A stretch of 16,597 bases of DNA from Rickettsiales bacterium. GTDB taxonomy: Bacteria > Pseudomonadota > Alphaproteobacteria > Rs-D84. The notes below the pieces were generated by a model, which saw only the letters and a program-made list of their open reading frames with translations, had not been told where the DNA came from and made no database searches. The translations under genes and the position numbers were made by a program. Of the stretch, positions 2,780 to 16,053 are shown piece by piece. Position 1 is the stretch's first letter; every line of letters begins with the position of its first letter. Location: NCBI GenBank assembly GCA_031259745.1, contig JAIRLB010000045.1, positions 1 to 16,597 of the forward strand. The letters run 5' to 3'.

Positions 2780-5700
2780 TTACCAAGGCGTGAATCCTTC
2801 CTTGCACTGGCGGACGCATTTGCGTGTCGCGGGATTCCATTTCATGGTTCCCGTTTCGTCTTCATACCCGTTGACATCGCAAATCGGCACGCATTCATTG
2901 CCTTCCAGGTTGTACAATTCGCCTTGGTGCATGCATGCGGCGATTTCGCACCCGCGCACATAGCTGCTTGCCGCCAGATCGCCCAGAATGCTGAACTTGT
3001 TCTTGCACTGTCCGCAAGGCTTGGAAAGCTCGTTTGTTTCCGACGGTTCGAAGGTATATCCGGGGTTGCAGGATTCGACGACGCATTCGCCCCATTTGTT
3101 TTTGACAAAATCCCATTCTTTATATCCGGCGCCGTTTTCGATGACGCATTCCTGCTCGTCGACGACGCAGGCGTTGGAAGCCACATGATAACCCGCATCG
3201 CAAGTCTTGATTGTGCAGATTCCGAATGCTTTTTTGGCCGCATCCCATGTCTGAAAGGCCTCTGCCGCGTTCGGCGCGGAACATTCGGCGACGCTTCCCT
3301 CGCACTTTTTTCCATTCGGGTGGTATCCCGCGACGCAGGATTCGACTTCGCAATTTCCGCCGGCGCTGTATGACAGGGCGTTTGTCCTGTTGCATGGCCG
3401 GCATAGGCCGCCAATCATTTCGTATGTGTTTTTGCAGCTATGCTCCACACAGGCGCCGCCGATATTTTTTCCCGGGTTTCCCGTGTCGGAAGTGCAGGAA
3501 TAGTCGCATTCGTCGGGATAGAATTCCGCCGCGTTTTTCGCGTGGTCGACGCCATAGCTCAACGCGACATCGGGGCATTGCTTATAGCAGTCCCGCTCGG
3601 TTGCCGCCCCGGCGCCCGCCAAAGACCAGCTGCCGTCCCCGACGCTTGTGCAGACTATGCGGTCGCTGTCGCCGGGACAGTAATATCCGGCCGTGCAAGT
3701 CGCGCAGCTGCCCGCGCCGGCCGCAGAATACGTTCCGGCTTTGCACGCCAAGCAGGCTTCGGCGTCCGAACCGTAGTAATAATTATGGGCGGCTTTATAT
3801 TTTCCCGCAAGACAGGCGGCCGGATCGTTGTCATTCTTCTTCGCAATGTATTTTCCGTCAGTCAATACTGTGCTTGGGATATAACAATCAGTAGAGCTGG
3901 CGGCGCCGCCGGCAGAAGTGTAATTGCTGCCCAGGCTGGAACAGCTGACCGCCGGCCCGCCGTTCGCGCCGCAGAAACTTCCCGCGGGGCATGGCTTGCA
4001 TTCGCCCGCGCTGATGGCGCCGGTGTTGTCCGTCGTCACGCCCGCGCCGCACGCCACGCATGATTTCGGGGCGCCGCTGGCAATCGTGCCGCCGGCGCTC
4101 CATGTTCCGATCGGGCATTTCGCGCAAGCCGCGCCATCCCAAGTATAGCCTGCAGCGCATGTATTCCACACGGCGTACAGGTTGAAGTCCGTTTTTTCCA
4201 ATCCGTCGATATCGTCGCCGTTTTGATAAATCGGCGCGCCGACGGCTGTTCTGGACCAGCCGCCGAAGACATATCCGACGCGCATAAAGCTGTTCAGTTC
4301 AAGGTCGTCGAATCTGCAGGTCATATCCACATAGCAGTTCTTGGTATAGCTTGCGCCGCCGCCGCCGATTATGCCGCCGTTCGGATAGAAAGTAATATCC
4401 AGCGGATTGCGGTCGCAGAACGGCATAGAGGTGTATCCGCTGTCATCATATGTTTCGCCGCCCAGGTTTTCGAAATACCCGACCGGGCATGACGGTATGT
4501 AGACGCAGAATTTCGGGTAATTTTCCGTGTAGTATCTGGCCGTTTTTATCGCGCCGACCGGCGGGGCGATGTGGACCGTTTCCTTGCAGGTTTGATAGCA
4601 ATCTTCGATACTATCATGATCGCCGGCCGCGGATTTTCCGGTAATGCGATAAATGCGCTCATCTTCGTTGTTTTTCGTTACCGTTGGGCATGTTTCCGGG
4701 GAAGAGAATGCGCCATAGGTCAGGCTGTGCGCCCCTATGTACTTGTCATCGGTTGTCAAGACTTGGCATTTTGCCGTCGCGTTTGGGACATAATAGCCGG
4801 GCATGCATTGCGTCACGCATTGCGCGGGCGCGTATAATCCCGCGGCGCCGTAATCATAGGTGTCGGGGCAATTCTGCAGATTTCCCAAGGAACCGTAATC
4901 GATGGTCGCGGCGGGGCAGTATTTTCCCGCCGGACAAGTCCCGCATGATTCGTATGCCGTGGCGACATATGTTCCGCCGCCGCAGTTTATTTTGCAATCT
5001 TGGACTTCATCATGCTCGGACGCCATGGTTTTGTTCCGTATACGATAGCCTTTGTTCGTATCGCACAAAGCCGGCGCGGATGTTTCGCCGTAATAAACGT
5101 AGTTGTCGATAATATACATGTCGTCCGTCGTCAGCGTCGAGCACGCGCTGGCGTTAGCCTGCGCTACATGCGTTCCGGCCGGGCAAAATATATAACAGTC
5201 TGCCTGTTCATCGCGGCCGCGGTCCGAATAGGAGTATCCGGTCGGGCATGCATTTGGCGCGGTCGTCGTTGTCTGGGATATTCCGGTCCGCGCCGCCACC
5301 CAGAATCCGCTGTCGGCGAACGTGCATGACGTGTCGTTCGCGGTTTTCAAATAATAGCCGGCCTGGCATGAAATCTTGCAATCCGTGACATCGTCATGAT
5401 CCGCGGCCGCCGTTCCAGAGGTCGTATAATTTGCCAGGCAGCCGGTGCAAGCCGCGGCGCCCGCATACGAATAGGTGTCGGCGGCGCACACCGCGCAAGT
5501 TTCAGCAGCAGAGTCATAATAATACTTATGCGCCGTTTTGTACGTGCCGGCAGGACAGCTGGTCGGCGTATTGCTGTTTTTTGTCGCGATGTACTTTCCT
5601 GCTGTCAAGATACTCTCCGGGATATAACAATCGCTGGCTGCGTCGGAACTTGTTGCCGAAGACGTGTAGTTGCCGCCCAAGGTTGTGCAGGCTATCCGAT

Positions 5701-8284
5701 TGCTGTTTCCAGGACAATAATACCCTGCCGTGCAATCCGTGCAGATGGCGGCGCCCGTTTCGGAATATTTGCCGCTGGCGCAGGGAGTGCAGCTGCTGGT
5801 ATTGCCGTAATTGACAGTATGATTGCCTTTGGATGTTCCCGCCGCGCAGTTTGTGGCGGACGAATTCTGCGCTGCCGCGATGTATTGTCCCGACAGGTTA
5901 TTCGTATAACAAGCGGCCGCGCTGGTTGAATTCTTTGGCGAATTCGGATACATGCCGCCAGCCAAGGCCGAGCAACTGTTGCAAACAGCCGCGCTGCCGG
6001 TGGAATAAGTCCCCATCTCGCTGTCATTGCGCGCGCCCGTGCCGCCGTAATTGACCAGCGCGGCGGGGCAGGCGTATCCGGCCTCGCAATCTGTCTGGGT
6101 CGTGGCGTTTGCGGTTTTGATATATTTTCCGCCGATGGTTTGAATTTGGCAGTCTGATTGTTTTTCCAAAGCAGTTCCGCCGTCGTCATAATTAGTCGGA
6201 CAAGCTGTCAGTCCGGTATTCGCGCCGGTCGAACGCGTCGCCGTGACGCCCAGACAGTAATTGCCAGCCGTGCATGTCGTGCAAGAGCGATCTTGCTCTG
6301 TATTACTGTATTTAAAGTAATTACCCTTGGCGCAAGTCAATGTCCAATTACACGTATCTGTTCCGCCGCCAGTTCCCGTATATGTCGCATTGGAAGGTTT
6401 CTTCGTGCAAGCGTCGCAGGAATACGATGTGCCGTAGTATTCGTTATGGGCCGCTTTGAATTGTCCGGTGCCGCAAGCCGTCAGTGACGTTCCGGACGCG
6501 CCTGCGCGGACATAGCCGGCGGCCACGGGCAAATAGCAGCTTTGCGAATCAATATCCTTATTCCCGCCGGCAGACGTATATCCGGCGCCAAAGTTCGCAC
6601 AGGATGTCAAACCGGAATTTGCAGTGGTTGAAGTGTACTCTTCGACACCCAGACAATAATTTCCGGCCATGCAGGGCTCGCATTGTTTCTTTGAACCGTT
6701 CCAATAAGTTCCGGCCGCGCAGGAAATCTTGCAATCGTCAGAAGAATCATGATCGTTTTGGATTGTTGTGCTTGGGGTATAATATCCTGAAATACAGGTT
6801 TGGTATTGACTGAACGAATCCCAATATACATAATGCTGTGCGGTGTACCAATTGCCGGTCGGCGTTGAACATTGCTCTCCTTTATCGGCAACACGGGTAC
6901 CTGCGGCACAAGTTATCTGACACTGCGTCGCAGCTGTCTTACCAGCTGTCGTATTAGCTGTGTAATTCGTAGGACAGTTGTTTTGCACACCATTGGCACA
7001 ATACGTTGTACCCGTGCACTGTGTCTGATCGGTACAATTATTATCACTCGTACATCCAGTGGTGTAATAACCACCACTGACCGTGCTGCACGCACTGGCA
7101 CCGACGGAACTGTACTTTGTACGGCCGGTACATGCAGCGCAACTGCTTTGACCCGTACTACTGTTATACGTTCCAGCAGCACATTGTGTGCACGTACTTG
7201 ATGTCGACGCATTTGTCGCAGTGCTGTACGTCCCGGCTCCGCACGCGGTTCTATTGCTTCCGCCTGTGCAATAATGTCCTGCTCCGCACGCACTGCATGA
7301 AGCTTGTCCCGTAGTATCATTATACGTTCCCGCAGCGCACGGAGTGCAGCTTTGCGCATCTTGGCCATAATAATATGTACCTGCCGCCCTATACGTGCCG
7401 GCAGAACAGCTGGTCAGCTGATTGCTGTTTTTTGTCGCGATGTACTTTCCTGCTGTCAAGATACTCTCCGGGATGTAACAATCGCTGGCTGCGTCGGAAC
7501 TTGTTGCTGATGTCGTATAATTGCTTCCAAGACTGGAACATGCCGTGCGTCCATGAATACTACTGTCTGGGGTAAATGTGCCGCCCGGACAATAATAGTT
7601 GGCTTCGCAGCTTGTGCAGCTAGTCGCGTTGGCAGTCAAATATGTTCCAGCAGAACAAGAGACGCTATCCGAAGCACAATTGCCGTTGCCGTCAGGGTGC
7701 GTGCCCGACCCACACCCGCAGGCTGCGGAACCCGAGGTTGAAAGACAGTTTTCGCAAGCGCTGCGGTCTGTATTTGGTTGTGTGCCGGCGGTACAAGACG
7801 AACACGCGGCTATCGTGCCAGCGCTGACATCGCGTCCGGTGCATGCGGTGCATGAACCTGTACCGGTCGAAGAATATCCATAGCCCGAGTTGCATTCTTT
7901 GACAGTATAATTGCAGTTTCCGGGACTGCTGGCGCTGCAACTCCCACCCTGGGGCTCGGTGCCGGTACTTGCTGCCGGGTTTGATGTATTGTATGTACAT
8001 GTTTTAACACCGTCTGTCGGACATCCGCTTTCAGTGCAAGCCACACTGCATGATTTCGTGCAACTGGACTCACCGCCTGAGTTGCCAGTAGTTGAAGTGT
8101 ATCCAGTAGAGCAGGTCTTGCATGAATTGCCAGCGACGGCCCCACCGGATAAATAATAACCTGCCGCACACGAAGTATATTTCTTATACGAGGGACATGA
8201 ATACCCAGCCGCAAGCGCGCTGCCGACAAAAAATATTATAAATAAAGACGCCAGAATATGCAGAATTCGCAGACTTTTTCTCAC
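2780..8284 (-). CDS. Giant secreted Cys-rich repeat protein with one InlB-type repeat
   Basis: About 1834 residues from the GTG at 8284. An ATG at 8332 is in frame, but the GTG has AGAGAGGAA five bases before it and begins a clean signal peptide (MRKSLR, hydrophobic ILHILASLFIIFFVGS, cleavage after ALA or ALAA near residue 25). The body is dozens of short modules of the type CxAGTYxxxxxxxxCxxCxAGxY, a GCC2/GCC3, ephrin-receptor or TNFR-like pattern, rich in Cys, Thr, Ser, Ala and Gly. Around residues 1295-1373 sits a single InlB B-repeat (Listeria-Bacteroides, Flg_new type) with ITFYPNGG and VGYVFGGWSR. The C-terminus has a different repeat, WDxxKxxWGxCxxxxCxxGY, at least twice, and ends CKEGFTPW. 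No sortase motif, autotransporter barrel or transmembrane anchor is visible. It is probably exported through Sec and disulfide-bonded; an adhesin or surface role is inference. Confidence 0.85.
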   Translation of the reverse strand: MRKSLRILHILASLFIIFFVGSALAAGYSCPSYKKYTSCAAGYYLSGGAVAGNSCKTCSTGYTSTTGNSGGESSCTKSCSVACTESGCPTDGVKTCTYNTSNPAASTGTEPQGGSCSASSPGNCNYTVKECNSGYGYSSTGTGSCTACTGRDVSAGTIAACSSCTAGTQPNTDRSACENCLSTSGSAACGCGSGTHPDGNGNCASDSVSCSAGTYLTANATSCTSCEANYYCPGGTFTPDSSIHGRTACSSLGSNYTTSATSSDAASDCYIPESILTAGKYIATKNSNQLTSCSAGTYRAAGTYYYGQDAQSCTPCAAGTYNDTTGQASCSACGAGHYCTGGSNRTACGAGTYSTATNASTSSTCTQCAAGTYNSSTGQSSCAACTGRTKYSSVGASACSTVSGGYYTTGCTSDNNCTDQTQCTGTTYCANGVQNNCPTNYTANTTAGKTAATQCQITCAAGTRVADKGEQCSTPTGNWYTAQHYVYWDSFSQYQTCISGYYTPSTTIQNDHDSSDDCKISCAAGTYWNGSKKQCEPCMAGNYCLGVEEYTSTTANSGLTSCANFGAGYTSAGGNKDIDSQSCYLPVAAGYVRAGASGTSLTACGTGQFKAAHNEYYGTSYSCDACTKKPSNATYTGTGGGTDTCNWTLTCAKGNYFKYSNTEQDRSCTTCTAGNYCLGVTATRSTGANTGLTACPTNYDDGGTALEKQSDCQIQTIGGKYIKTANATTQTDCEAGYACPAALVNYGGTGARNDSEMGTYSTGSAAVCNSCSALAGGMYPNSPKNSTSAAACYTNNLSGQYIAAAQNSSATNCAAGTSKGNHTVNYGNTSSCTPCASGKYSETGAAICTDCTAGYYCPGNSNRIACTTLGGNYTSSATSSDAASDCYIPESILTAGKYIATKNSNTPTSCPAGTYKTAHKYYYDSAAETCAVCAADTYSYAGAAACTGCLANYTTSGTAAADHDDVTDCKISCQAGYYLKTANDTSCTFADSGFWVAARTGISQTTTTAPNACPTGYSYSDRGRDEQADCYIFCPAGTHVAQANASACSTLTTDDMYIIDNYVYYGETSAPALCDTNKGYRIRNKTMASEHDEVQDCKINCGGGTYVATAYESCGTCPAGKYCPAATIDYGSLGNLQNCPDTYDYGAAGLYAPAQCVTQCMPGYYVPNATAKCQVLTTDDKYIGAHSLTYGAFSSPETCPTVTKNNEDERIYRITGKSAAGDHDSIEDCYQTCKETVHIAPPVGAIKTARYYTENYPKFCVYIPSCPVGYFENLGGETYDDSGYTSMPFCDRNPLDITFYPNGGIIGGGGASYTKNCYVDMTCRFDDLELNSFMRVGYVFGGWSRTAVGAPIYQNGDDIDGLEKTDFNLYAVWNTCAAGYTWDGAACAKCPIGTWSAGGTIASGAPKSCVACGAGVTTDNTGAISAGECKPCPAGSFCGANGGPAVSCSSLGSNYTSAGGAASSTDCYIPSTVLTDGKYIAKKNDNDPAACLAGKYKAAHNYYYGSDAEACLACKAGTYSAAGAGSCATCTAGYYCPGDSDRIVCTSVGDGSWSLAGAGAATERDCYKQCPDVALSYGVDHAKNAAEFYPDECDYSCTSDTGNPGKNIGGACVEHSCKNTYEMIGGLCRPCNRTNALSYSAGGNCEVESCVAGYHPNGKKCEGSVAECSAPNAAEAFQTWDAAKKAFGICTIKTCDAGYHVASNACVVDEQECVIENGAGYKEWDFVKNKWGECVVESCNPGYTFEPSETNELSKPCGQCKNKFSILGDLAASSYVRGCEIAACMHQGELYNLEGNECVPICDVNGYEDETGTMKWNPATRKCVRQCKEGFTPW
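5570..5656 (-). repeat. Internal duplication in the Cys-rich gene, copy 2
   Basis: These 87 bases match 7421-7507 with a single difference. Similarity continues at a lower level on the 5541-5569 side. The pair encodes the same run, SDAASDCYIPESILTAGKYI and a few residues on each side. A third, more diverged protein-level copy (DCYIPSTVLTDGKYIAKKN) lies near 3800-3905. Near-identity amid otherwise diverged modules indicates recent duplication or gene conversion. Confidence 0.9.
7421..7507 (-). repeat. Internal duplication in the Cys-rich gene, copy 1
   Basis: Partner of 5570-5656, with 86 of 87 bases identical. Both sit in the same module context: CxTLGxNYT-type sequence before, CxAGTYxxAxxYYY after. 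The supermodule is therefore a unit of about 90 residues that has been copied within the gene. Confidence 0.9.
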
Positions 8285-8306
8285 AGGTTCCTCTCTTTTA
8301 TGTCTT

Positions 8307-8336
8307 ATATTAGAAAAAATAGCATATGTCATGCAA
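8307..8336 (-). promoter_or_regulatory. Possible promoter of the Cys-rich gene
   Basis: On the minus strand, TTGCAT (8336-8331) and TAATAT (8312-8307) are separated by 18 bases. The expected transcript start, around 8300, lies downstream of the ATG at 8332 and upstream of the GTG at 8284. This fits the choice of the GTG start. Neither box is a full consensus, so the call is tentative. Confidence 0.35.
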
Positions 8337-8549: not shown

Positions 8550-8619
8550 ACGCATAAATTGCGTATATTATATTTGACTTTGCGTCAATTATAAGGCATA
8601 ATCTACGCAAATAATGCGT
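8550..8619 (+). promoter_or_regulatory. Fic gene promoter with three 5-5-5 palindromes
   Basis: TTGACT (8574-8579) and CATAAT (8597-8602) with a 17-base spacer make a good sigma70-like promoter. Three 15-bp palindromes, each with 5-bp arms and a 5-bp centre, lie across it: ACGCATAAATTGCGT (8550-8564), TTGACTTTGCGTCAA (8574-8588, covering the -35) and ACGCAAATAATGCGT (8605-8619, at the expected start of transcription). The first and third share identical arms ACGCA/TGCGT, and TGCGT also occurs inside the second. The layout suggests repression, perhaps by the Fic protein's own C-terminal helix-turn-helix region. Confidence 0.55.
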
Positions 8620-8664
8620 GTATTGTCACGGCGCGCTGAACAAATTCAGTCAAAGGCGGTAAAA

Positions 8665-9753
8665 ATGAAATATATTCATGAACATCTGGGATATCCAAAA
8701 TTTACTTGGGATAAAGATTTAATTATCGATCTTATGACAAGCGTATCTGTTTTGCAGGGGCGCATATTGGGCAAAATGCAGCAATTTGGGTTCGGCGTCC
8801 AACAAGAAGCAATGCTGAACGCCATGACCGAGGAAATTACCAAATCAAGCGAAATAGAAGGAGAAGCGTTAAACAGCGAGCAAGTCCGATCTTCGTTGGC
8901 AAGGCGACTGAATATAAATCTAGAGAAAGAAACAACCCCGCCGCACCATGTTGAAGGTGTTGTCGATGTTCTGATGGACGCCGTCCGCAATTACAAGGAT
9001 CCATTAACCGAAGATCGTCTGTTCGGATGGCATGGCGCGCTGTTTCCAACCGGACGAAGCGGATTATATAAAATTCGTGTGGCCGAGTTTAGGACTAATG
9101 AAATGCGGGTCGTTTCAAGCAATGGATTTCGCGACATGGTTCATTATGAGGCCCCAAAACCAAATGAAGTTCCCGGGCAAATGTTGGAATTCTTGCAGTG
9201 GCTGAATACGAATGGCAATGAAAATTCATTGCTGAAAGCGGCGCTGTCGCATCTGTGGTTTGTTATAATTCACCCATTTGACGACGGCAACGGGCGGCTT
9301 GCCCGAACCATTACGGAGATGATGCTTGCCCGCGCGGAAAATACAAATTTGCGGTTTTATTCCATGTCCGCGCAGATTCAGAAAGATAAAAAAGAGTATT
9401 ACCGCATTCTGGAACGAACAACAACCGGCGGACTGGATATAACGCCGTGGCTGGAATGGTTTTTGGAAACGCTTGGCCGCGCGATAACAGGCAGCGAAGA
9501 AATTATCGGAAAAGTTTTGAAGAAAGCGGCATTCTGGCAAAAAAACGCGGCGCAAATATCTAACAAAATTCAGCGGGAAATAATAAACCGCCTGTTTGAC
9601 GGGTTTATCGGCAATATGACATCCGGAAAAGTCGGAAAGATTTTTAAGATTTCCCATGATACGGCAGTGCGTTTGCTGAAAGACCTGGCATCAAAGGGTT
9701 TGTTGGAAATTCAGGGCGCCGGCCGCAACACTCACTATGTCCTGAAAGACTGA
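8665..9753 (+). CDS. Class II Fic family protein with DUF4172-like N-terminus and C-terminal wHTH
   Basis: 362 residues from ATG 8665, which has AGGCGG five bases upstream. An in-frame ATG at 8614 sits inside an operator-like palindrome almost at the predicted transcript start, and the family normally begins MKYIHEHLGYPKFTWD, so 8665 is chosen. The N-terminal ~80 residues are the DUF4172-type helical domain and carry the Fic inhibitory motif SSEIEG (61-66, pattern S/TxxxEG). The Fic core has the full active-site motif HPFDDGNGRLAR at 203-214, with catalytic His203 and the anion-binding Gly-Asn-Gly. Residues ~318-360 look like a winged helix (KIFKISHDTAVRLLKDLASKGLLEI). Fic proteins typically transfer AMP from ATP to target hydroxyl groups, and the intact inhibitory Glu implies self-inhibition. 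The target is unknown. The gene stands alone with its own promoter. Confidence 0.9.
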   Translation: MKYIHEHLGYPKFTWDKDLIIDLMTSVSVLQGRILGKMQQFGFGVQQEAMLNAMTEEITKSSEIEGEALNSEQVRSSLARRLNINLEKETTPPHHVEGVVDVLMDAVRNYKDPLTEDRLFGWHGALFPTGRSGLYKIRVAEFRTNEMRVVSSNGFRDMVHYEAPKPNEVPGQMLEFLQWLNTNGNENSLLKAALSHLWFVIIHPFDDGNGRLARTITEMMLARAENTNLRFYSMSAQIQKDKKEYYRILERTTTGGLDITPWLEWFLETLGRAITGSEEIIGKVLKKAAFWQKNAAQISNKIQREIINRLFDGFIGNMTSGKVGKIFKISHDTAVRLLKDLASKGLLEIQGAGRNTHYVLKD

Positions 9754-9845: not shown

Positions 9846-10004
9846 GTGAAAAATAGATATTTTTTGCACAGGCAAAATCCGCAGAAACCCGCGGATGACA
9901 AATGGCGGGCAAACGACGGATGGGTTGGAATACTTGACGACATTATTATCATTGCCGACACTTTAAGTCAAGATGATTGGAATTTAATAAATGATGCTAA
10001 ATAA
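9846..10004 (+). pseudogene. Possible gene remnant after the Fic gene
   Basis: In one frame from GTG 9846 to TAA 10002-10004 the last ~37 codons read like a real protein end: DDKWRANDGWVGILDD, a hydrophobic III stretch, then ADTLSQDDWNLINDAK. The part before it does not look coding and no start with a ribosome binding site is visible. It may be the 3' scrap of a small antitoxin-like or unknown gene. The rest of 9754-10022 holds a small hairpin, CGAAAC (9813-9818) with GTTTCG (9827-9832), and nothing else I recognise. Confidence 0.25.
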
Positions 10005-10022
10005 CTGCTATACTTTTTAAGT

Positions 10023-10075
10023 AAAACTTGTGCTAAGTTTTGTGTAAATTAGTCTTAAAATAGTTTTCTAATTTA
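10023..10075. promoter_or_regulatory. Two inverted repeats upstream of the NYN/RNA promoter
   Basis: AAAACTT-GTGCT-AAGTTTT (10023-10041) is a perfect 7-bp palindrome. It is followed directly by TAAATTAG (10045-10052) and CTAATTTA (10068-10075), perfect 8-bp arms whose 15-base loop holds AAAA-TAG-TTTT. They end five bases before the -35 box at 10080. Both are candidates for operator sites; AT-richness makes some chance symmetry possible. Confidence 0.4.
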
Positions 10076-10079
10076 CTGC

Positions 10080-10108
10080 TTGACAAAACAACATAAATAT
10101 ATTAAATT
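10080..10108 (+). promoter_or_regulatory. sigma70-like promoter upstream of the NYN gene
   Basis: TTGACA (10080-10085), a 17-base spacer, and TAAATT (10103-10108). The -35 is a full consensus. Transcription would start near 10115, about 77 bases before the NYN start codon, so that the transcript begins with the structured segment at 10115-10176. Confidence 0.55.
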
Positions 10109-10114
10109 AACAGG

Positions 10115-10176
10115 TGATTAATCGCTGCTGTAATTGGCAGTAGCTCCCGCCGAGCACTGGGCTCGGCATCTTTTTT
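10115..10176 (+). ncRNA. Candidate ~60-nt structured RNA or leader upstream of the NYN gene
   Basis: Starting after a consensus promoter, the segment folds by eye into two stems. Stem 1 is GCTGCTG (10124-10130) with CAGTAGC (10138-10144), seven pairs with one G-U, and loop TAATTGG. An unpaired TCCC follows. Stem 2 is GCCGAGC-ACTGG-GCTCGGC (10149-10167), and ATC plus six Ts end it like an intrinsic terminator. A competing pairing exists: GCTC at 10143-10146 with GAGC at 10152-10155. The unit is therefore either a free small RNA or an attenuator leader for the NYN gene, whose ATG is 15 bases beyond the T-run. No known RNA family is claimed. Confidence 0.5.
10149..10176 (+). terminator. Intrinsic terminator before the NYN gene
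   Basis: A perfect 7-bp GC-rich stem (GCCGAGC with GCTCGGC, loop ACTGG) is followed by ATC and TTTTTT at 10171-10176. It is oriented with the NYN gene and sits between that gene's only clear promoter and its start codon. Transcription into the gene must therefore read through. Confidence 0.7.
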
Positions 10177-10191
10177 GGATAAGGATTTAGT

Positions 10192-10854
10192 ATGAATAAA
10201 AGAAGAGTTGCTGTTTATATTGATGGATTTAATCTATTTCACAGCGCTCTGCAAAAAAACTTTTCAACTACTCCTATTGCAAAGCAAAGATGGCCGGAAT
10301 TAAGGTGGCTTGATTTGCGTAAACTGTCCCTAAATTTTATAAATCCCAAAACGGAAAACCTTCTAAATGTTTACTACTTTTCCGCACCTATTGCTTGGAA
10401 GCCAGCTAAGGCTAATAAGCATAAAGAATATATGAATGCCCTAAGAACTGTTGGCGTAGAGATAATTTTAGGACAATTTAAGGAAAAAGACAGAACTTGT
10501 CCGAATTGCAAGAAACCTTATAAGGCTCACGAAGAAAAAGAAACCGATATAAATATTGCCATATCCATACTTTCTGACGCCATTCAAGATAAATTTGATA
10601 CCGCGTTAATTTTATCGGGTGACAGTGATTTGGCCCCGGTTATAACAAAGTTAAAAAAGTTATTTCCTACAAAAAAAGTAGGCATTATACTCCCGCCATA
10701 TCAATATGGCGCCGAATTGGTAGACAAGGCGGATTATGCTAAGAAAATTCATAAAAGCAATCTCCGCAGATCTTTATTGCCTTCATCTATAAAATATTTA
10801 GGAATAGTTATCAACGCGCCAAATGGGTGGTTGCCGTCAAATATTGACCCATAA
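10192..10854 (+). CDS. NYN (PIN-like/LabA-DUF88) domain protein, predicted RNase
   Basis: 220 residues. VAVYIDGFNLF at 6-16 is the opening NYN motif with Asp11 and Asn14. EKETDINIAISILSDA (115-130) supplies the central acidic residue Asp119. ALILSGDSDLAPVI (138-151) supplies Asp144 and Asp146. VGIILPP and ADYAKKI follow as expected. Together these give the acidic metal-binding site of PIN-like nucleases. A CPNC pair at 103-106, with His113 nearby, could bind zinc. NYN proteins are predicted or shown to be RNA-processing nucleases. The ATG is preceded by AAGGA (10181-10185). Base composition is visibly more AT-rich than the genes to the left, suggesting transfer. It follows a structured RNA candidate with its own terminator, which could be its substrate, regulator or antitoxin (inference). 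Confidence 0.85.
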   Translation: MNKRRVAVYIDGFNLFHSALQKNFSTTPIAKQRWPELRWLDLRKLSLNFINPKTENLLNVYYFSAPIAWKPAKANKHKEYMNALRTVGVEIILGQFKEKDRTCPNCKKPYKAHEEKETDINIAISILSDAIQDKFDTALILSGDSDLAPVITKLKKLFPTKKVGIILPPYQYGAELVDKADYAKKIHKSNLRRSLLPSSIKYLGIVINAPNGWLPSNIDP

Positions 10855-10926
10855 ATCGCACATTATAGAAAGCACATATATTTCGGGTATTCTCCCATGC
10901 TTCTTTGATCGCCAGCTGAATTAGCA

Positions 10927-11083: not shown

Positions 11084-11190
11084 TATGAGTATAAATGGAC
11101 TGGGGATTCTCGGTCGGCGGCCCGCGAAAGCAGACCGCTTCTTTTATTCCGACAATATCACCGGTGATTTCTCACAAAGCTTTCCGCTGA

Positions 11191-12095: not shown

Positions 12096-13340
12096 ATGGC
12101 ATTGATAAACAGGTCAGAATACCTTGAGAAACTTAAAATCTTGCGAGATAAGCAGGACTTGGTAAAAGTGATAACCGGGGCCAGAAGGTGCGGGAAATCT
12201 GTTCTGCTGGAACTATTTCAAAATTATTTGAAAACAACAGGCATCGCCGATGCTCAGGTAATCTCCATAAATTTTGAAGATTTGATAAATGACGAATTGA
12301 GAGATTATAAAAAACTGCACCAGCATATAATGAAATTGATCCAATCCGACAAAATGACCTATGTGTTTCTCGATGAAGTACAGCTGGTAGAAAACTGGAT
12401 AAAGGCGGTAAATTCTCTGAGGATAAAAAAAGGTGTTGATGTTTATGTCACAGGATCAAATGCCAATATGATGAGCGGCGATCTGAACAATGAATTCGGC
12501 GGCCGCTGGATGGAAATAAAAATGCTTCCGCTGTCGTTCAAAGAGTATGCTCAAGGAAATATCCGATCGGGCAAGCCTTTATCCGATGTATACGAGCGGT
12601 ATATAACTGAAAGCGGATTTCCGCAAACCGTGGAGTTTGGCGGCGACCAGCGGATCATCGGCGATTATCTGCGCGACACCGTATTTCTGAATGCGATCCA
12701 GAGGGATATAATAGGCAAATATAAATTGCCGGATGCCACAAAATTAAATGATACGGCTCGTTTTGTATTTGATAACATGGGGCGTCCAACCTCTCTATTG
12801 TCAATAGAAAAGGGATTGGGGCAATCAGGGCGAAAAGTGGACGCCGATACCGTTGGGAATTATATTAAATGGCTGCAGGACTGTTTCATGCTGTACAAGT
12901 GCGAGCGGTATGACATAAAGGGTCGTCAGCTTTTATCAACCAATGCAAAATACTATGTGGTGGATTGCGGATTGCGGTATGCTCTGCTGGGGCATCGGGA
13001 CACTGACATAGGGCGCACATTGGAAAATGTAGTGTATCTTGAGTTGCTTCGCAGGGGGTATAAAGTTTACGCTGGAAAAATAAACAAGAAAAAAGAGATA
13101 GACGGCGAGGAAGTTGCGCTAGAAGTTGATTTTGTTGCAGAAAAAGACGGTGAAAAAGAATACTATCAGGTTTCCCGCTCTATTATTGAAGAAAAAACCA
13201 TGAAACGGGAATATGCTTCGCTTGAAGAAATCAAAGACGGGTACCCAAGATATTTGCTTACAATGGATGCGCGCGGCGGGGGGCAGGGAAGCATAAAACG
13301 GTTGAATGCGCTGGATTGGTTGCTGGGAACGGCAAACTAA
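12096..13340 (+). CDS. ATP-binding protein, AAA_14 + DUF4143
   Basis: 414 residues, the normal length for this family. The Walker A motif GARRCGKS is at 28-35, Walker B YVFLDEVQ at 89-96, and the sensor-like VTGSNANM at 118-125. GRWMEIKMLPLSFKEYAQG (136-154) is the typical AAA_14 block, followed by FPQTVE and IQRDIIGKY. The C-terminal half is DUF4143. It ends in a nuclease-like fold with ENVVYLELLRRGYKVY, ALEVDFVAE and YYQVS, the shape of a PD-(D/E)xK core. AGGAG (12086-12090) is five bases before the ATG. Members are widespread in gut bacteria and of unknown biological role. The protein ends LDWLLGTAN directly before an inverted copy of the ANDN element. Confidence 0.9.
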   Translation: MALINRSEYLEKLKILRDKQDLVKVITGARRCGKSVLLELFQNYLKTTGIADAQVISINFEDLINDELRDYKKLHQHIMKLIQSDKMTYVFLDEVQLVENWIKAVNSLRIKKGVDVYVTGSNANMMSGDLNNEFGGRWMEIKMLPLSFKEYAQGNIRSGKPLSDVYERYITESGFPQTVEFGGDQRIIGDYLRDTVFLNAIQRDIIGKYKLPDATKLNDTARFVFDNMGRPTSLLSIEKGLGQSGRKVDADTVGNYIKWLQDCFMLYKCERYDIKGRQLLSTNAKYYVVDCGLRYALLGHRDTDIGRTLENVVYLELLRRGYKVYAGKINKKKEIDGEEVALEVDFVAEKDGEKEYYQVSRSIIEEKTMKREYASLEEIKDGYPRYLLTMDARGGGQGSIKRLNALDWLLGTAN

Positions 13341-14486: not shown

Positions 14487-15197
14487 ATGAAAAACAGCAA
14501 TTATCTTATATTTGTTGATGAATCGGGTGATCAAAACCTAAAAGTTATTAATCCGAACGGTTATCCCGTTTTCGTCTTAGCTTTTATGATTATTCATAAA
14601 GATGAGTATTGTAATAACCTTTTGCCAAAATTCGCAAAACTGAAATTAAAATATTTCCCTGACGTCAACACGGTATTTCATGAAAAAGATATTCGCAAAG
14701 CGGAAAAAGATTTTGTAATTTTAACAAAACGTGAAGTTCGCGAATCGTTTTTTGATGACTTGAATAATTTGATGTCAGAAATAGACTATAAAATTGTAGC
14801 GGTTGTCGTAGATAAAAACGAAACAGAACAATCCGATTTAAGCAATGATTTGTACGAAATAGCAGTCAAACACGGTTTGTCCGCTATAAGGGCGTTTCTG
14901 AAAAAAGAAAATGATTTTAACTATACTACGGCAACTTTTGAATCGCGGGCGTATTCTTTATATGAATATAGACAAGTTGATAAAAAATTGTACGATTATT
15001 TTACCAAAATGGCTGCACCGGAATTTGGAATTTCAATACAGGTCAAGTCATCTGGTGGTTTCGGATTGCAATTTGCGGATTTAGTTGCCAGGCCCATAGG
15101 CATGCATATTTTAAGACCCGACCAAAATAATCGCGCCTGGAATATATTAGAATCTAAAATTTGCGAAAACGGGCTGATTGTTTTGCCAAAAAAATAA
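14487..15197 (+). CDS. DUF3800 domain protein (RNase H-like fold)
   Basis: 236 residues. The ATG at 14487 is chosen because AAAGGA lies six bases upstream, a strong promoter ends at 14467, and the family starts near this point. IFVDESGD at 8-15 is the DUF3800 hallmark with Asp11 and Glu12. HEKDIRK (65-71) is the second conserved block. VAVVVDK (104-110) and TFESRAY (150-156) follow. LQFADLVARP (194-203) closes the fold with Asp198. These acidic residues are arranged like an RNase H/RuvC-type metal site. DUF3800 genes are common in mobile and defence-associated regions and are of unknown role. Composition is AT-rich like that of the NYN gene. Confidence 0.85.
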   Translation: MKNSNYLIFVDESGDQNLKVINPNGYPVFVLAFMIIHKDEYCNNLLPKFAKLKLKYFPDVNTVFHEKDIRKAEKDFVILTKREVRESFFDDLNNLMSEIDYKIVAVVVDKNETEQSDLSNDLYEIAVKHGLSAIRAFLKKENDFNYTTATFESRAYSLYEYRQVDKKLYDYFTKMAAPEFGISIQVKSSGGFGLQFADLVARPIGMHILRPDQNNRAWNILESKICENGLIVLPKK

Positions 15198-15263: not shown

Positions 15264-15401
15264 GTGGAAAAAGTCAAGTGCAAAAAGCCGGCCTTAGTTG
15301 ATGACCATAAAACCCTTGTAGAACAGACTTTACGGGACAATTACGAGGAAATCAAGTGTTATTTCGAGACAAGACCATTTAGGATAATGGGTCAGCTCTG
15401 A
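15264..15401 (+). other. Short protein-like frame beside the transposase
   Basis: From GTG 15264 to TGA 15399-15401 a 45-residue frame reads VEKVKCKKPALVDDHKTLVE and then LRDNYEEIKCYFETRPF. The composition looks protein-like and it is in the same frame as the preceding DUF3800 gene after its stop. It overlaps the transposase 3' end by 23 bases on the opposite strand. There is no ribosome binding site. It may be a gene scrap or chance. Confidence 0.2.
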
Positions 15402-16053
15402 ATATTTTCAATAATAGCCTATAAAGGTCTTCTCGTCTATGGTTAAATCGCCATTCGCTTTCCTTAATGTGGATATAGTGCTTGTCATATCTAATCCCCT
15501 TGAACCGCGACAGTCTCAATCTCGTCCAAACCCAATAGCTCTCTATACGGTTCGTAGTCACGTTCAGGACCCCTTCCTTGCGTCCAAACTCGTACTCAGA
15601 ATGATTGACGGTCTTATGTATAAAGCCTTCGTTCGCAAGACCTTTATACATAGGCGCAGCGTCGGTAAATATTGTCGTTCCGGGCTTGCATACAGTGCGG
15701 ATTTCCGCAAAAATCTCTGCCTTGCTTACCCGCGTCAAGATCTTCGTATAGACATATTTTGAGGATATTATCCCAAGCACCGCAGTCTTGCTGTTATACC
15801 AAGAACGTCTCGCTTTGGATGCCCCAAAGTATGCCTCGTCTATCTGAACATTGGTCATGCCGTTCGGTTTCTCTTGTTCGGACAGTAACACTATCCTTGC
15901 CCGGATTCTGTTATATACCGCATTTACCGTCTTGCGGTTCAATCCGGCCTTTACCGCCGCCTTTGACGCCTCGGTCCCAAGGACAAATTCCCGCAAAACG
16001 AATCGTAATCTCCGTTCCGATAAGTGAGACCTGTTTTTATATTTGTTTTTCAT
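15379..16053 (-). CDS. IS1595-family (ISXO2-like) transposase
   Basis: 224 residues. The N-terminal helix-turn-helix is EFVLGTEASKAAVKAGLNRK (22-41). The DDE-type catalytic core has IDEAYFGA with Asp72 and TIFTDAAPMYKGL with Asp131. HSEYEFGR lies at 151-158, then NRIESYWVWTRLRLSRFKG with Asn168 and Glu171. The family's closing signature SEWRFNHR is at 199-206. All catalytic residues are present and the frame is open, so it could be active. It is shorter than members with an N-terminal zinc ribbon. The start codon has GAAAGGAG upstream, partly buried in a 9-bp hairpin (16058-16081), a plausible brake on translation from read-through transcripts. Confidence 0.9.
   Translation of the reverse strand: MKNKYKNRSHLSERRLRFVLREFVLGTEASKAAVKAGLNRKTVNAVYNRIRARIVLLSEQEKPNGMTNVQIDEAYFGASKARRSWYNSKTAVLGIISSKYVYTKILTRVSKAEIFAEIRTVCKPGTTIFTDAAPMYKGLANEGFIHKTVNHSEYEFGRKEGVLNVTTNRIESYWVWTRLRLSRFKGIRYDKHYIHIKESEWRFNHRREDLYRLLLKIFRADPLS

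Follow-up and report, generated by a model that had tools for sequence, protein, structure and literature searches.

The window (the whole stretch of 16,597 nt analysed here) contains, at positions 10080–10854, a short terminated RNA directly followed by the gene of a NYN-domain ribonuclease, and the comparison with relatives points to an undescribed two-part module, NYN nuclease plus small RNA, that recurs across bacterial groups, phages and small plasmids. We propose, at a probability of about 60%, that this module works in the manner of a type III toxin-antitoxin pair, with the RNA as the inhibitor of the NYN protein. The estimate reflects a layout that matches both AbiF/RCd22 and the type III toxin-antitoxins. 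NYN/PIN-like RNases occur widely among bacteria, where their role is mostly unknown. If the proposal is correct, the presence of a dedicated inhibitory RNA would account for the cell's tolerance of a NYN nuclease, and RNA-antitoxin systems would extend to a new nuclease fold, perhaps with an anti-phage role.

The RNA is preceded by a sigma-70-type promoter with matches to the consensus at 10 of 12 positions (Table 1), in agreement with the first-pass annotation, which had described a consensus -35 element with a 17-bp spacer. The same annotation had described about 60 bases folding into two stems, the second a terminator, and this was borne out by the predicted fold, whose minimum free energy is -26.2 kcal/mol where shuffles average -15.9 (z -3.7; equalled by 0 of 200 dinucleotide shuffles), and by the run of six T residues that closes it. 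The start codon of the NYN gene lies 15 nt past this T run, and a consensus scan found no second promoter between the terminator and the ATG, as had likewise been claimed. The 220-aa ORF matches the Pfam NYN family (PF01936; E value 2e-14; 54.7 bits against a gathering cutoff of 24.2), no other Pfam family being found at an E value up to 0.001, and residues 4–213 match the PADLOC HEC-09 profile (PDLC04163; E value 2.3e-55; 185.4 bits), in which we take HEC to stand for HMA-embedded candidate. The protein has the PIN-like/NYN fold together with its conserved acidic residues, and NYN chains rank top in the fold listing, with which other folds remain compatible. Covariance model R2, whose training set includes the window RNA, scores that RNA at 75.5 bits and finds one copy only in the window's own genome. 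Rfam has no gathering-level match in the window, and a hit of hilD_3p_UTR on the RNA (17.1 bits; gathering 74) was treated as chance.

Table 1. Features of the two RNA-bearing loci of the window.
Feature	Position	Strand	Details
Sigma-70-type promoter of the RNA	10080..10108	+	-35 TTGACA (10080-10085), 17-nt spacer, -10 TAAATT (10103-10108)
NYN-associated small RNA	10112..10176	+	probable 5' end ~10114-10117; ~60 nt
Stem-loop 1	10124..10144	+	7-8 bp; 10124-10131 pairs with 10137-10144
Stem-loop 2 and T6, intrinsic terminator	10149..10176	+	10149-10155 pairs with 10161-10167; T6 at 10171-10176
Likely ribosome binding site	10181..10185	+	AAGGA; from sequence
NYN-domain (PIN-like) ribonuclease gene, HEC-09 family	10192..10854	+	220 aa; ATG at 10192
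DUF3800 gene	14487..15197	+	
Promoter of the DUF3800 RNA	15277-15249	-	TTGACT-17-TATAAT; 11/12 matches
Two-hairpin terminated RNA, convergent with the DUF3800 gene 3' end	15245-15184	-	58 nt; fold z -5.0

The window contains 28 terminator-like sites where shuffles give 23.1 (sd 4.3). Since this count is close to expectation, the case rests on comparison with relatives, and it is conservation, and not the number of terminators, that sets the window terminator above chance. The window RNA was aligned with those of a termite-gut relative (L014; 84% identical) and of six spirochaete loci (L198–L203), giving a nearly gap-free set of eight RNAs that represents few independent lineages. The 14 pairs give 109 scorable cells, each of which holds a standard pair (3 cells are gapped), and six of the 14 pairs have changed on both sides, with 14 such cells compared with 4.5 in shuffles and at most 3 in slid structures, used as a control. 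These changes affect 4 of the 7 pairs of stem-loop 1 and 2 of the 7 pairs of stem-loop 2, every scorable cell being paired in both. A lack of conservation upstream of homologues had been named beforehand as what would refute the proposed pair; when this was examined, the stems proved to be kept, and the pair was not refuted. Moreover, in 8 of 8 members of the clade a correctly placed promoter agrees with the consensus at 9 or more of the 12 positions, with 0.6 expected from single-base shuffles. A profile built from the six spirochaete RNAs and searched in the window plus L014 (23 kb) ranked the 3' half of the window RNA (10146–10176) first (E value 6.5e-5) and the L014 RNA second (E value 0.0015). 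Two viral contigs have a NYN protein of 59% identity and RNAs scored by R2 at 88.5 and 87.6 bits. Where the NYN frame is disrupted, in L204 and L208, the RNAs are visibly altered (L208 scores 41.5 bits with R2, which misses L204); together with two broken copies in which the RNA is kept (L231 and L232), these cases are anecdotal. That the arrangement arose by chance, or is no more than a normal 5' UTR in which a terminator happens to lie, would suit the terminator count of the window, but is contradicted by the compensatory changes, by the enrichment over control genes and by the model matches in at least eight phyla described below, and we regard it as extremely improbable.

NYN loci were gathered by protein search and by applying the HEC-09 profile to whole genomes, with at most 30 loci taken per search. 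The profile was found in 20 of 398 genomes of the window's phylum, in 22 of 256, 19 of 246 and 10 of 240 genomes of the phyla of G183, G187 and G190, and in 52 of 221 and 11 of 239 genomes of those of G186 and G191, respectively. A DNA-search locus without NYN (L002), duplicate upstream regions and matches starting inside the profile were excluded before scoring, which left 163 loci; two of these had too little upstream DNA, so that 161 were scored. A terminator is present within 60 nt upstream of the gene in 98 of the 161 NYN loci, compared with 48 of 486 neighbouring control genes. These controls came from the same set of loci, each start codon within their first 120 nt was tried, and they are a fairer control than an earlier one (17/362), which used leftmost starts and flattered the enrichment. 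A stricter hairpin definition gave 94/161 and 22/486, and a looser one 121/161 and 127/486, for NYN loci and controls, respectively. On viral contigs, a terminator precedes NYN by 60 nt or less in 44 of 61 distinct loci. Terminators on the minus strand upstream of NYN are not enriched by themselves (43/161 versus 101/486 controls), and support for the divergent class of RNAs described next thus comes from the sequence model and the promoters of that class.

By covariance model, the NYN-associated RNAs can be sorted into three classes: a UUCG-loop class (model R1, 36 sequences), a divergent GATAGC class (model R3) and the class of the window. R1 gave 71 matches at E values up to 0.05 in 74 sources. 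Sixty-four of these lie within 300 nt upstream of a NYN gene on the same strand, and three more overlap the gene only through the choice of start codon; the remaining four are a second, downstream copy in L045 and three matches left unclaimed, in L016 (2.7 kb off), L023 (E value 0.009) and L176 (overlapping, minus strand). In an alignment fitted to the model, 94.8% of the cells of the UUCG class are paired, and 228 cells, in 14 of 15 pairs, have changed on both sides, compared with 53 in shuffles. The divergent class (16 sequences), located upstream of NYN on the opposite strand, shows changes on both sides in 14 of 17 pairs, and 15 of the 16 have a promoter that is directed away from NYN and agrees with the consensus at 9 or more of 12 positions (0.3 expected). 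The G-U pairs present at the base of stem 2 in 9 of the 16 sequences fit the opposite strand only. R3, searched in 63 sources, gave 26 matches, none with an E value above 6.2e-9; they fall in 22 of the sources, of which 16 are training loci.

Taken together, matches to the models span at least eight phyla, as grouped by ourselves from host names in the record titles, with hosts in Pseudomonadota, Spirochaetes, Planctomycetes, Chloroflexi, Acidobacteria, Verrucomicrobia, candidate Kaiserbacteria/Parcubacteria and Rhodothermia. R2 matches downstream of NYN (L261 and L267–L273 at 21–24.5 bits; L278 at 17.7 bits) were not counted; one of them, L269, reads as an ordinary terminator. No claim is made for weak R2 matches in L126, L187, L277, L298, L018, L307, G169 (three) and G1817 (one), for R1 matches in viral contigs with E values above 0.01, or for R3 matches with E values above 1e-4. 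A crude pattern for an EEK motif in the NYN protein selected 116 loci, with a strict terminator in 79, a weaker one in 21 and none in 16; among these last, six have a strong R3 match, L042 has a weak one and nine show no RNA by either the terminator scan or R3. The 45 loci lacking the motif comprise 19 with a strict terminator, 8 with a weaker one and 18 with none (6 with R3). At the gathering level, Rfam returned only tRNAs in two sets of 20 NYN relatives and only RNAI in nine more; a Thr_leader hit in L062 (30.1 bits; gathering 55) was treated as chance. The NYN RNA classes, having no Rfam match at cutoff in the window and these 49 relatives, could be proposed from the alignments.

The position of the RNA relative to the gene varies. 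Copies downstream of NYN and convergent with it were found in L029 (25 nt from the stop), L025 (about 430 nt; NYN frame interrupted), L309–L311 (53.5–55.2 bits) and, weakly, L206 (24.1 bits; promoter readable by eye), while two RNA copies are present in L169, L174, L175 and L186 (R1), in L020, L022, L023 and L081 (R3), and in G1542:C13. Six genomes picked for multi-copy NYN were searched with R1 (E values up to 0.01; 150 candidates per genome first scored). By our tally of coordinates, 21 of the 27 matches lie upstream of a NYN gene, tandem second copies counted and three training sequences included; conversely, 18 of 21 NYN genes have an upstream R1 RNA and three have no adjacent R1 match. 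The other six matches are L231 and L232, both before NYN remnants, one lying 3 kb off a NYN gene, and three with no NYN in the neighbourhood. This freedom of placement argues for a product that acts in trans. UUCG-class RNAs were also seen in L223 and L227 (Chloroflexi, the phylum of G186), with no NYN in 2–3 kb and the same unrelated gene adjoining.

These placements bear on a reading of the RNA as a cis-acting leader, in which a signal-dependent terminator would attenuate NYN transcription and the RNA would have no role in trans. The window RNA itself lies in the 5' UTR of NYN, and here, as in most relatives with this layout, the same-strand terminator lies about 50 nt or less from the start codon, so that read-through must set NYN levels at such loci. 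However, in relatives the RNA is also found on the other strand under a promoter of its own, downstream and convergent, in tandem, or alone, and the opposite-strand and downstream positions make an obligatory leader unlikely. Neither an antiterminator nor a leader ORF is conserved, the tests for attenuation having covered GCTC pairing and short ORFs. The first-pass annotation had suggested that GCTC at 10143–10146 can compete for the terminator stem, a suggestion that did not hold up: the forced pairing gives -14.5 compared with -26.2, a cost of 11.7 kcal/mol, although it could form briefly, before the 3' arm of the terminator is made, and GCTC is found in 3 of the 8 clade members. The window RNA has a GTG frame of 9 codons, considered as a leader peptide, which is not conserved in the clade. 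In our judgement, the leader reading is quite unlikely.

Tight co-occurrence and free placement would suit any partner acting in trans, including a required cofactor or scaffold that gives an active, targeted NYN nuclease and not an inhibited one; HEC-09, in addition, belongs to a library that collects established and candidate defence proteins. Against this, no variable unpaired segment that could serve as a guide is apparent by eye between promoter and terminator, which disfavours a guide role and led us to reject a guide RNA, and the RNA is found beside two NYN remnants and, in 4 of the 27 genome matches, not adjoining NYN. RNAs with a remnant or absent NYN would be expected of an antidote more readily than of an activator, and we consider a cofactor rather unlikely. 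The RNA might also be a substrate or product, with NYN maturing a small RNA that works elsewhere, as in the crRNA trimming proposed for a CRISPR-associated NYN in the accessible text of PMC11346440. We find this quite improbable, since promoter and terminator signals already bound the RNA, and it has no evident target-pairing stretch. What had been envisaged as a pair resembling a type III toxin-antitoxin has good support as a genetic architecture (conserved RNA, terminator and NYN linkage), whereas an attenuating leader and a guide, both raised with it, are disfavoured.

Under the preferred reading, that of an inhibitory RNA, the single promoter would produce an abundant two-hairpin RNA of about 60 nt, stopped at the terminator, and the NYN mRNA would arise from occasional read-through; by analogy to type III systems, the RNA would be in excess over that mRNA. 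The folded RNA would bind the NYN RNase and hold it inactive. If transcription were shut off, e.g., by a phage, the RNA would be depleted before the NYN protein, and the RNase thus set free would cleave RNA, its toxicity and its release by infection giving the behaviour of a type III toxin-antitoxin or abortive-infection system and, possibly, phage defence. In one survey of Pseudomonas strains, HEC-09 correlates with phage susceptibility, not resistance, according to the accessible text of PMC12447246.

The module also occurs on small plasmids; 401 plasmid records matched, from which five of 3.5–4.6 kb carrying NYN were examined. On the enterobacterial plasmids L063–L066, a divergent helix-turn-helix gene is located beside NYN, so that a protein regulator is possible there, and the RNAs look longer. 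On one of them, a 4.6-kb Klebsiella plasmid (L065:1519–1599), the region before NYN has a 28-nt direct repeat at a spacing of 53 nt that recalls the repeats of type III antitoxins; in three other plasmid regions no such repeat was found.

A DUF3800 gene in the same window has a convergent RNA at its 3' end (Table 1), to which a weak R3 match (19 bits) pointed. Relatives of DUF3800 were collected from viral contigs (77 loci, 43 of them distinct and long enough), and only DUF3800 loci were counted. In all 43, the minus strand has a terminator within the 250 nt around and after the stop, compared with 14 for the strand of the gene over that stretch; upstream, a terminator lies within 60 nt in 4 loci and on the minus strand in 10. 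A hand-written sequence pattern for the RNA matched 22 of the 43 loci, with the two window copies, seen by eye, left unmatched. An alignment around TGGAYTGGG...CCCGGTCGGC takes in 13 of the 22 together with the two window stretches; the window copies fit mainly in the first hairpin, and 12 of 20 predicted pairs have changed on both sides. One of the two, a solo and somewhat degenerate stretch at 11087–11149 (+) that resembles the DUF3800-type RNA, aligns without matching the pattern. Rfam has no gathering-level match in 16 DUF3800 loci, and the RNA was unmatched among phage records by DNA and in a single-sequence viral scan. A link between DUF3800 and ncRNAs has been reported before (PMC10910872, accessible text). 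On balance, we lean towards the view that this is a very widespread module in which several two-hairpin classes, each of its own sequence, pair with HEC-09-type NYN proteins in at least eight phyla, phages and tiny plasmids, that they constitute a new class of RNA antitoxins with a PIN-like toxin, and that DUF3800 with its convergent RNA is a second system of the same design.

Elsewhere in the window, a Fic/DUF4172 protein (PADLOC SoFic) is encoded at 8614–9753 and an AAA_14/DUF4143 protein (PADLOC PDC-S01) at 12096–13340, so that the contig holds further matches to the defence library. A 1850-codon ORF for a cysteine-rich repeat protein (2780–8332, minus strand) occupies a third of the contig, and an IS1595-family transposase ORF (15379–16053, minus strand) is located downstream of the DUF3800 gene.

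Among the literature matches listed, which excluded subscription papers and most preprints, no partner RNA of a bacterial NYN was found besides crRNA, nor did the literature searched provide a mechanism for HEC-09; NYN is absent from the main text of a 2026 defence-prediction paper (PMC13092281). Among known systems, PADLOC HEC-09 has in common with the window its protein, the window NYN belonging to that profile family in a comparison of protein profiles alone. The CRISPR-associated NYN also is a nuclease acting on a small RNA. In the accessible text of PMC11346440, it is a Mn-dependent ssRNase of a type III CRISPR locus, proposed to be a crRNA trimmer and not a toxin, and that text does not mention a terminated partner RNA for it. 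The DUF3800-associated ncRNAs resemble the NYN pair in that putative ncRNAs lie close to a nuclease-like protein; however, DUF3800 has an RNase H-like fold (PMC10910872, accessible text) and belongs to another family than NYN, and the DUF3800 RNA of the window has a sequence of its own.

ToxIN, CptNI and TenpNI share with the window a single unit of RNA gene, terminator and RNase gene, and the window does have an RNA gene with an intrinsic terminator directly upstream of an RNase gene, as is typical of type III systems. The toxins differ, those of type III being ToxN-like and the window nuclease NYN/PIN-like, and the ToxN fold is distinct from the NYN/PIN-like fold. By its Pfam match, the nuclease is not a toxin of the ToxN, CptN or TenpN type, and the RNA occurs in one copy and not as tandem repeats, although some relatives have two complete copies; because repeats and a ToxN-type toxin are lacking, we do not file the window as type III. 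According to the accessible text of PMC12373285, type III antitoxins are tandem repeats, with ToxI units forming pseudoknots, where the window has a single two-hairpin unit, and the terminator is reported to keep the antitoxin RNA more abundant than the mRNA of the toxin. AbiF/RCd22, as described in the same text, differs from the window in its Abi_2 protein and in RCd22 transcripts of 88–132 nt with two abiF motifs; the abiF RNA motif (RF03085) has no gathering match in the window and is absent among six weak matches in 9900–10900. The two nevertheless share promoter, structured ncRNA, intrinsic terminator and an effector gene without a second promoter, and in AbiF/RCd22 the ncRNA binds the toxin tightly and neutralises it in cis and in trans (PMC12373285).
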